64,000 bases of DNA from Acidihalobacter aeolianus (GTDB lineage Bacteria; Pseudomonadota; Gammaproteobacteria; DSM-5130; Acidihalobacteraceae), in NCBI RefSeq assembly GCF_001753165.1, contig NZ_CP017448.1:3227183-3291182 (forward strand), given 5' to 3'. The notes beneath the pieces were generated by a model. That model ran no database searches. It saw only the letters and a list, made by a program, of their open reading frames with translations, and was not told the origin of the DNA. Within the stretch, counting starts at the first letter, position 1. The number at the start of each line of letters is the position of its first letter. Made by a program: the position numbers and the translations under genes. Positions 10,448-11,706 of the stretch are shown in pieces.

Positions 10448-10461
10448 ATGTGGACCTTGAT

Positions 10462-11052
10462 ATGAGCATCGAACTCCTTCCGGAAAACATCCGCCAAAAC
10501 TACGAAGTTCACGAGTGGAAGCATGCGGCAGCCATTTTCCACGCTGATTTCGCACAGGAGTGGGATGACCTGATTGCCGTACTGGATGCCTTTCGGCTTT
10601 ATCGCAGTTGGATTGTCGAACCGGGCGGACGTAAATCGAGAGTGGCAAGCTTCATTGATGGTTTTCTAGCTGAGCGTGGTTGGCTAGAAAAGGGTTTCCA
10701 GACCCGTATGGTTGTCGACGACAACACCATGGAAACACCGACGCATAAGGTCGACTGCTTCAAGAACCGTATCGCACTTGAGATCGAATGGAACAACAAG
10801 GACCCATTTTTCGACCGCGACTTGAACAACTTCCGCCTGTTGTTCGAGTTACGTGCGATCAGTATCGGCGTCATTATTACTCGCTGCGATGCGTTGCAAG
10901 ACATCTTCAACCGACTTGGCCGCGGCTCATCATATGGCGCATCGACCACACACATGAGTAAGCTGTTGCCACGCATTGAGGGTGGCGGCGGGGGTGGATG
11001 TCCGGTACTTGTCTTCGGCATAAAACCCGAACTCTATATAGAGGACGAATAA
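10462..11052 (+). CDS. BglII-type restriction endonuclease
   Basis: Resembles the BglII/BstYI restriction endonuclease family (type II enzymes cutting within GATC-centred palindromes). The 196-residue protein carries a plausible PD-(D/E)xK-type core, THKVDCFKNRIALEIEWNNKDPFFDRDLNNF around residues 94-124 when read as separate blocks, with Asp, Glu and Glu residues suited to metal binding. A Gly-rich run (six Gly) lies near residue 180. I use the ATG at 10462; a GTG at 10450 is also in frame and neither has a good ribosome-binding site. The methyltransferase gene follows directly. Base composition is clearly AT-richer than in algC and argB. Exact specificity is not determined. Confidence 0.8.
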   Translation: MSIELLPENIRQNYEVHEWKHAAAIFHADFAQEWDDLIAVLDAFRLYRSWIVEPGGRKSRVASFIDGFLAERGWLEKGFQTRMVVDDNTMETPTHKVDCFKNRIALEIEWNNKDPFFDRDLNNFRLLFELRAISIGVIITRCDALQDIFNRLGRGSSYGASTTHMSKLLPRIEGGGGGGCPVLVFGIKPELYIEDE

Positions 11053-11706
11053 ATGAGCATAACGGCACGAGATGACTTGTTAGCGAGCATCGGGGAACAG
11101 AAATTCGCCACTGTACTGGCCGACCCGCCATGGCAGTTCACCAACCGCACGGGCAAGATGGCACCCGAGCATAAGCGCCTCGCGCGTTACCCAACGCTAC
11201 CGCTAGCCGAAATCCAGGCGCTGCCCGTCGCTGACTTCCTTGAAGACACCGCACACCTTTACCTCTGGGTACCCAACGCGCTGCTAGCCGAGGGCATGGC
11301 CGTGATGCAAGCCTGGGGATTCACTTACAAAACCAATTTGGTTTGGTACAAGGTGCGCAAAGACGGAGGGCCTGATCGTCGAGGAGTCGGTTTCTACTTT
11401 CGCAATGTCACCGAAATGTTGCTGTTCGGCGTACGTGGACGCAACGCGCGCACGCTGGACCCCGGGCGTAGCCAGGAAAATATCATCGTCTCGCAGAAAC
11501 GCGAACACAGCCGCAAACCAGACGAACAGTACCCATTGATTGAAGCCTGTAGCCCAGGTCCATATATAGAAATGTTCGCGCGCGGCCCACGCCCTGGCTG
11601 GCACGTATGGGGCAATCAGGCGGAGCAGTACGTTCCAGACTGGTCGACCTACTCCAACCATTCGCAATCTGAACACACTAGCCGCAAACAGAGCGAACTG
11701 TTCTAA
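11053..11706 (+). CDS. MT-A70 family N6-adenine DNA methyltransferase
   Basis: Likely protective methylase of the restriction-modification pair. It contains the catalytic DPPW motif (LADPPWQF) around residue 23 and the MT-A70 core blocks [21 protein letters not shown] and [14 protein letters not shown]. The last part, [17 protein letters not shown], is the typical SAM-site end of this family. Its ATG follows the endonuclease stop with no gap, and GAGG lies 8 bases upstream. MT-A70 enzymes methylate adenine at N6. BglII itself is paired with a cytosine methylase, so this pairing differs from the type enzyme. Only 2 bases separate it from argB. Confidence 0.88.

Follow-up and report, generated by a model that had tools for sequence, protein, structure and literature searches.

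A restriction-modification gene pair, probably horizontally acquired and directed at RGATCY, between algC and argB of Acidihalobacter aeolianus

The window considered here, a 64-kb (64,000 nucleotide) stretch of the Acidihalobacter aeolianus genome (3.53 Mb in 2 contigs; hereinafter G000), contains two adjacent genes, denoted R and M, that lie between an algC-type gene and argB. The features of the locus are as follows.

9068..10447, + strand: algC-type phosphomannomutase/phosphoglucomutase gene, upstream flank (Pfam PGM_PMM I-IV; the PgmG-type NCBIfam match is below its cut-off)
10442..10456, + strand: left junction, sharing 12 of 15 bases with its counterpart on the right, a match not clearly above chance
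10462..11052, + strand: R, restriction endonuclease of the BglII/BstYI family, 196 aa (PF09195, E 9.8e-48)
11040..11045, + strand: AGAGGA, ribosome-binding-like site 7 nt before M, identified by sequence (duplex energy -5.8)
11053..11706, + strand: M, DNA adenine methyltransferase of the MT-A70 family, 217 aa (PF05063, E 7.8e-31; DPPW motif)
11701..11715, + strand: right junction, paired with 10442-10456 in the junction comparison
11709..12587, + strand: argB, acetylglutamate kinase, downstream flank (TIGR00761, 247.7 bits, cut-off 151.3)

Both reading frames are intact and follow each other, R then M, on the + strand. Measured from stop to start, the spacers are 14 nt from algC to R, 0 nt from R to M and 2 nt from M to argB. 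The GC content of R (0.514) and M (0.569) is lower than that of coaBC, algC, argB and pyrE (0.651-0.715), and so is the GC content at third codon positions (0.594 and 0.651 vs 0.837-0.881 in the same four genes). The original prediction, namely two AT-richer genes of the same direction that fill the algC-argB gap and encode a BglII-type nuclease with an MT-A70 adenine methylase, is thus borne out by the spacing and composition and by the two protein families and the predicted fold. The similarity of the two junctions was considered as a possible target duplication; at least 12 matching bases were reached by 95 of 1,994 random segment pairs, so that the repeat is near chance and no clear duplication is left.

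The original prediction had R starting at GTG 10450. The ATG at 10462 is the most likely start instead, because a start codon is found at residue 1 in all 64 relatives whose match reaches this residue (64 of the best 80 of at least 560 genome relatives), and because the ribosome-site score is -3.0 for ATG 10462 compared with +0.4 for GTG 10450. R matches the entire PF09195 (Endonuc-BglII) profile (162.4 bits, cut-off 26, positions 1-163 of 163). No match was detected for R in PADLOC or PHROGs, nor for either R or M in NCBIfam at 0.001, and the PDB sequence search with R alone returned one weak, irrelevant chain (E 0.16). In the fold search, the structure model of R (pLDDT 91.4, pTM 0.89, alignment of 23 rows) retrieved BstYI (Z 17.7, rmsd 3.0, 165 aligned), BglII (Z 17.6, rmsd 3.0, 157 aligned) and, with lower scores, BamHI (Z 14.6) and OkrAI (Z 13.4); the score then drops to Z 5.7, and outside the BglII/BamHI group nothing was found at high Z. 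Judged by this model, R is predicted to adopt the BglII/BamHI-type nuclease fold. The structural alignments with BstYI and BglII show only 15-16% sequence identity, and the fold cannot separate a BstYI-like (RGATCY) from a BglII-like (AGATCT) specificity because the Z values are tied. Three residues, D98, E107 and E109, are kept in all 80 of the best 80 of at least 560 genome relatives and align, in a weak sequence match, with D119, E128 and Q130 of BstYI; these are the putative catalytic residues of R, a role assigned from this alignment and from the motif. The profile of 31 relatives matches BstYI only weakly by sequence (E 0.0017), and placement of specificity residues through this alignment was rejected for that reason.

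M matches the complete MT-A70 profile (107.7 bits, cut-off 23.9, positions 1-172 of 172) and the PADLOC MTase_II model (E 2.5e-88). The DPPW motif, residues 24-27, is kept in 12 of 12 aligned rows and in all 76 genome relatives aligned at this position. The methylases that accompany BglII and BstYI act on cytosine, whereas the partner of R belongs to an adenine methylase family, so that the pair differs in this respect from the BglII system proper.

The locus was compared with two genomes of the same genus (G001 and G002) and two of the same family (G003 and G004). Adjacency of algC and argB is common across gammaproteobacteria at large. The comparison of the locus in relatives shows an empty site in G001, G002 and G003, where algC directly precedes argB with stop-start spacers of 36, 28 and 6 nt, respectively; in G004, no algC match was detected within 1.5 kb upstream of argB. 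Among the five genomes, PF09195 has a match in G000 only. The R-M pair is an acquisition, most likely by horizontal transfer, because the algC-argB junction is free of an insert in three relatives and PF09195 is absent from all four relatives checked. In the sister genome G002, which lacks PF09195, two MT-A70 genes of equal score (G002:C7:3558-4031 and G002:C6:45655-46128) are each 33% identical to M; this genome also has a PF02086 (Dam-type) gene.

Outside this lineage, relatives of R are numerous. The genome scan confirmed at least 560, the best 80 of which are 65-76% identical to R; the record titles of these 80 include Gammaproteobacteria, Betaproteobacteria, Rhodobacteraceae, Deltaproteobacteria, Bacteroidetes, Chloroflexi, Acidobacteria and Planctomycetes, among others, and as many of the records are metagenome assemblies, single titles may be wrong. 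Within the class, a close R (E <= 1e-30) was found in 2 of the 274 genomes drawn, namely G000 and one other (L182) in which R (73% identical) and M (74%) lie side by side, and PF09195 is present in 4 of the 56 relatives searched, G000 included. Relatives of R were also found in 5 phage records (two of which are one phage under two accessions), 13 plasmid records and 17 IMG/VR contigs. The MT-A70 partner anticipated in the original prediction recurs: an MT-A70 gene lies beside R in 77 of the best 80 of at least 560 relatives, in 75 of them with R before M on the same strand. In the other two, a Lysobacterales assembly (L058) and Luteimonas huabeiensis (L083), M is convergent with R. An M gene is missing in three of the same best 80 of at least 560; in two of these, the sequence runs out 44 and 121 bases past R. 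The remaining one (L059:4980-5588, a Candidatus Electronema assembly) has no M in 5 kb of sequence, and its R retains D98, E107 and E109 and has lost the G55-G56 pair and P115/F116, which are nearly universal elsewhere, as if this R were decaying after loss of the methylase.

The distances between R proteins and between M proteins are correlated (Mantel r 0.26 in 97 pairs and 0.47 in the 85 closer pairs; in both cases 0 of 999 permutations were as high), and therefore the two genes appear to have travelled together to a fair extent. Between the 85 pairs of a short class (among L001, L005-L102, L113 and L114) and the 12 of a long class (L104-L112, L115, L118 and L119), the median identity is 0.39 for R and 0.70 for M. 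By these identities, two nuclease classes go with a single methylase class; the nuclease diverged or was exchanged, with the MT-A70 partner unchanged. Two plasmids, of Dyadobacter (L116:2501-4322) and Acinetobacter (L117:1084-3240), encode nucleases of the same class as R (59% and 53% identical, respectively) next to a partner annotated as 'DNA adenine methylase', not MT-A70, with an adjoining helix-turn-helix gene. A title-level search of papers on R-M pairs in operons found no title on the BglII-fold/MT-A70 family, and one aimed at the family itself gave a title on another system.

For the recognition site, the most informative relatives are R.Nph3I and M.Nph3I of the Nitratiruptor phage NrS-3, which are 70.1% identical to R over residues 1-194 and 76.4% identical to M over residues 8-206, respectively; R and M thus show the homology to this pair and, with 0 nt between them, the adjacency that mark systems of the Nph3I kind. 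R.Nph3I is reported to cleave AGATCT, GGATCC, AGATCC and GGATCT, BglII cutting only AGATCT in the same report, and to be completely inhibited by 6mA, and the product of M.Nph3I is given as RG(6mA)TCY (PMC10734518). RGATCY is described as fully methylated in NrS-3 and its host, and M.Dor12838I, also an RGATCY enzyme, is named as the most similar characterised methylase (PMC9723563). Methylation of RGATCY as 6mA has been reported in Azospirillum thiophilum (PMC4706337) and Acinetobacter baumannii A118 (PMC10287943), and as m4C in Rhodobacter blasticus (PMC6256690), so that either base is used by RGATCY systems.

From this tested pair, 70-76% identical, we infer the site, the methylated base and the sensitivity to 6mA. 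Taken together, R and M most likely (with a probability of about 0.87, in our assessment) constitute a complete, horizontally acquired Type II R-M system that would act on RGATCY with 6mA. M would methylate the RGATCY sites of the host's own DNA at N6 of the GATC adenine, and R, presumably acting as a dimer, would cut unmethylated RGATCY in incoming DNA, the mark made by M blocking R. BglII, too, acts as a dimer. The original prediction gave AGATCT or RGATCY as candidate sites of N6-methyladenine; RGATCY, not AGATCT alone, has the best support, since each of its four forms is cut by the nuclease of the nearest tested pair found (70%/76% identity). No PF02086 gene was detected in G000, and therefore the genome has no Dam-type gene of that family that would mask RGATCY sites. 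If this reading is correct, DNA from Dam-positive Escherichia coli should be protected from R.

The same two-gene system could in principle recognise AGATCT alone, as BglII does, M then methylating that site. R shares PF09195 with BglII, its fold is as near to BglII as to BstYI, and just 3 of the 48 RGATCY sites in the window are AGATCT, fewer than for any of the other three forms. Nevertheless, this alternative is quite improbable, given that R.Nph3I, 70% identical to R, is reported to cut all four forms, unlike BglII (PMC10734518), and that the AGATCT deficit recurs in G001 and G002, both of which lack PF09195. The two AGATCT sites noted originally (32733 and 33235) are present, and a third, at 62390, had been missed; the mean in dinucleotide shuffles of the 64-kb window is 8.4. 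The 48 RGATCY sites compare with 60.4 expected, and none lies inside the R-M pair. In 400 kb of G000, the observed/expected ratios are 0.51 for AGATCT, 0.55 for GGATCC and 1.06 for AGATCC, so that AGATCC/GGATCT is not depleted genome-wide; the respective values are 0.66, 0.59 and 1.04 in G001, and 0.42, 0.60 and 0.96 in G002 (sample from one contig). Site avoidance was accordingly rejected as evidence on the recognition site: it gives no host-specific support, because the sister genomes without PF09195 share the AGATCT and GGATCC deficits. The lack of host-specific avoidance is compatible with a recent arrival of the pair.

Sites within the genes of relatives (counted in 87 R and 85 M genes free of in-frame stops, from 90 loci chosen) are also fewer than expected, 88 vs 105.9 RGATCY in R and 49 vs 66.1 in M; for both genes, none of 100 codon shuffles gave so low a count. 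This depletion was not accepted as proof either, as it is mild and the control RGTACY is depleted in the R genes, too (4 vs 13.5). Two other palindromes are under-represented in the genus: CTCGAG, counted on both strands, has observed/expected values of 208/450 in G000, 92/306 in G001 and 200/471 in G002 (samples L120-L179), and CGATCG likewise is under-represented in the three samples, which hints at another, lineage-wide cause.

The ribosome-site duplex energies are -3.0 for R, -5.8 for M and -2.2 for argB, and a stronger site for M than for R is common in the family: among the 71 comparable of 80 loci, the site of M is stronger in 52, weaker in 16 and equal in 3 (Wilcoxon p 1.5e-5, uncorrected for relatedness and with no control for operon position). 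R and M are probably carried on one transcript that enters from algC, and the strong M site together with the weak R site may keep protection ahead of cutting; both the co-transcription and the translation bias are read from the sequence. An R that is silent or inactive here, with M acting as a lone GATC-type adenine methylase, would agree with the weak ribosome site of R, with transcription that, as far as is visible, comes from upstream, and with a lone gene lacking R in Methylococcus capsulatus that has been assigned RGATCY (PMC13390346). Such a silent R is nonetheless hardly probable, considering that R is intact and that D98, E107, E109 and the other positions checked are kept as in its relatives. 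The M. capsulatus gene, MCA0246, is a 651-bp adenine methylase gene that is reported to have no predicted nuclease nearby (PMC13390346); judged by its length alone, it could be a relative of M.

A promoter scan of positions 10000-12000 found no site, with 0.9 expected from shuffles. The absence of a visible promoter before argB, noted in the original prediction, says little, because the scan is empty across the whole interval; in a GC-rich genome, a missing promoter-like site is in any case weak evidence. Read-through from algC into argB probably predates the insert, since argB trails algC by 36, 28 and 6 nt in the three relatives. As an addition to the RGATCY system, it can be proposed that argB depends on transcription and translation through R and M, such that loss of the pair would cost arginine synthesis and the pair would be locked in. 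Such a dependence would fit the start of argB 2 nt after the M stop, its weak ribosome site (-2.2) and the absence here of the spacers seen in G001 and G002 (36 and 28 nt). It would also fit the recurrence in other phyla of pairs near housekeeping genes: in L033, a purQ-type gene follows the pair, and in L039, the pair is flanked by a dihydroorotase gene and one of the dihydroorotate-dehydrogenase-subunit type. We regard this addition as unlikely, as only 6 nt separate algC and argB in G003 without any insert, a clean loss of R and M would restore the old order, and the spacing of pairs to their neighbors equals the background.

The latter result comes from 63 loci in which M follows R and either flank measures 1 kb or more (62 upstream neighbors called) and 340 background gene pairs from the same loci. 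The upstream neighbor is on the same strand in a fraction of 0.73, the downstream neighbor in 0.63 and the background pairs in 0.65, and the fraction on the same strand and within 60 nt is 0.35 in all three; at a limit of 20 nt, the pair falls below the background (0.10 upstream and 0.17 downstream vs 0.24). Hence there is no enrichment of operon seating, and the pair is packed no more tightly than an ordinary gene. The genes were called by the longest open frame, so that some are probably spurious (upstream in L030, L045 and L067) and called starts can overstate closeness: in L067, the called start lies 48 nt from M, and the recognisable RimO part about 195 nt.

Twenty close neighbors were chosen and compared with NCBIfam, 'type' denoting a score below the best equivalog cut-offs or above a broader model only. 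Upstream of the pair, these are tatC, dapD, nadE, purL type, topoisomerase III, dihydroorotase, ribonucleotide reductase beta, rimO, ubiB type and hinT type; downstream, they are hypB, gltD type, phnA, purQ type, dihydroorotate-dehydrogenase-subunit type, aroC, transaldolase/phosphoglucose isomerase, asnS and rimO, and the neighbor in L046 has no match. In four Rhodobacteraceae (L040, L048, L066 and L084), a frame whose sequence starts alike follows the M stop after 9 nt; that of L040, the only one of the four compared, is chorismate synthase, aroC. The R gene of L084 has an in-frame stop. A general scenario in which lone RGATCY pairs without mobility genes settle in housekeeping strings, and the following gene (argB in this case) becomes reliant on the translation of M, which would hold the pair in place alongside the killing of cells that lose it, likewise appears doubtful. 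The 2-nt spacing, the weak argB ribosome site and the pairs near tatC, dapD, nadE, dihydroorotase, purQ-type, aroC and asnS genes in other lineages would agree with it; the background-like spacing speaks against it. The wider family offers natural insertions into housekeeping strings in which the dependence of downstream genes on R-M pairs could be addressed.

Several known systems can be compared with the pair. The enzymes of EcoRI and Eco29kI belong to families other than those of R and M. Their operons resemble the window pair in that the nuclease gene precedes the methylase gene, and are described as having an M promoter inside the operon and an antisense RNA that limits R (PMC3874152). 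The RGATCY cluster of A. baumannii A118 has a nuclease of the BglII/BstYI superfamily, 6mA at RGATCY and protection of DNA by Dam methylation; it differs from the window pair in the regulator gene and the AbiD-type gene alongside (PMC10287943). BstYI (RGATCY) and BglII (AGATCT) share the fold of the R model, and PF09195 is named after BglII. In the respective reports, these two enzymes are not blocked by Dam-type 6mA (PMC10287943), whereas R.Nph3I is (PMC10734518).

The Nph3I pair shares both families with the window pair and has the same layout, R then M on one strand. It is phage-borne, in a host of the Campylobacterota, with a regulator gene annotated after M, whereas the window pair is chromosomal, between algC and argB; the activity of the Nph3I enzymes is reported from assay (PMC10734518), and the window pair is known from its genes. 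In the NrS-3 record (L113:2501-3088, NrS3_08), the nuclease is annotated as 'methyltransferase', yet it is the nuclease tested in that report (PMC10734518). Judging by these similarities, the pair between algC and argB is very probably a further member of the widespread and already characterised RGATCY kind represented by Nph3I. It adds a chromosomal member to the very widespread family that combines a BglII-fold nuclease with an MT-A70 methylase, systems that are easily mistaken for BglII (AGATCT) systems.
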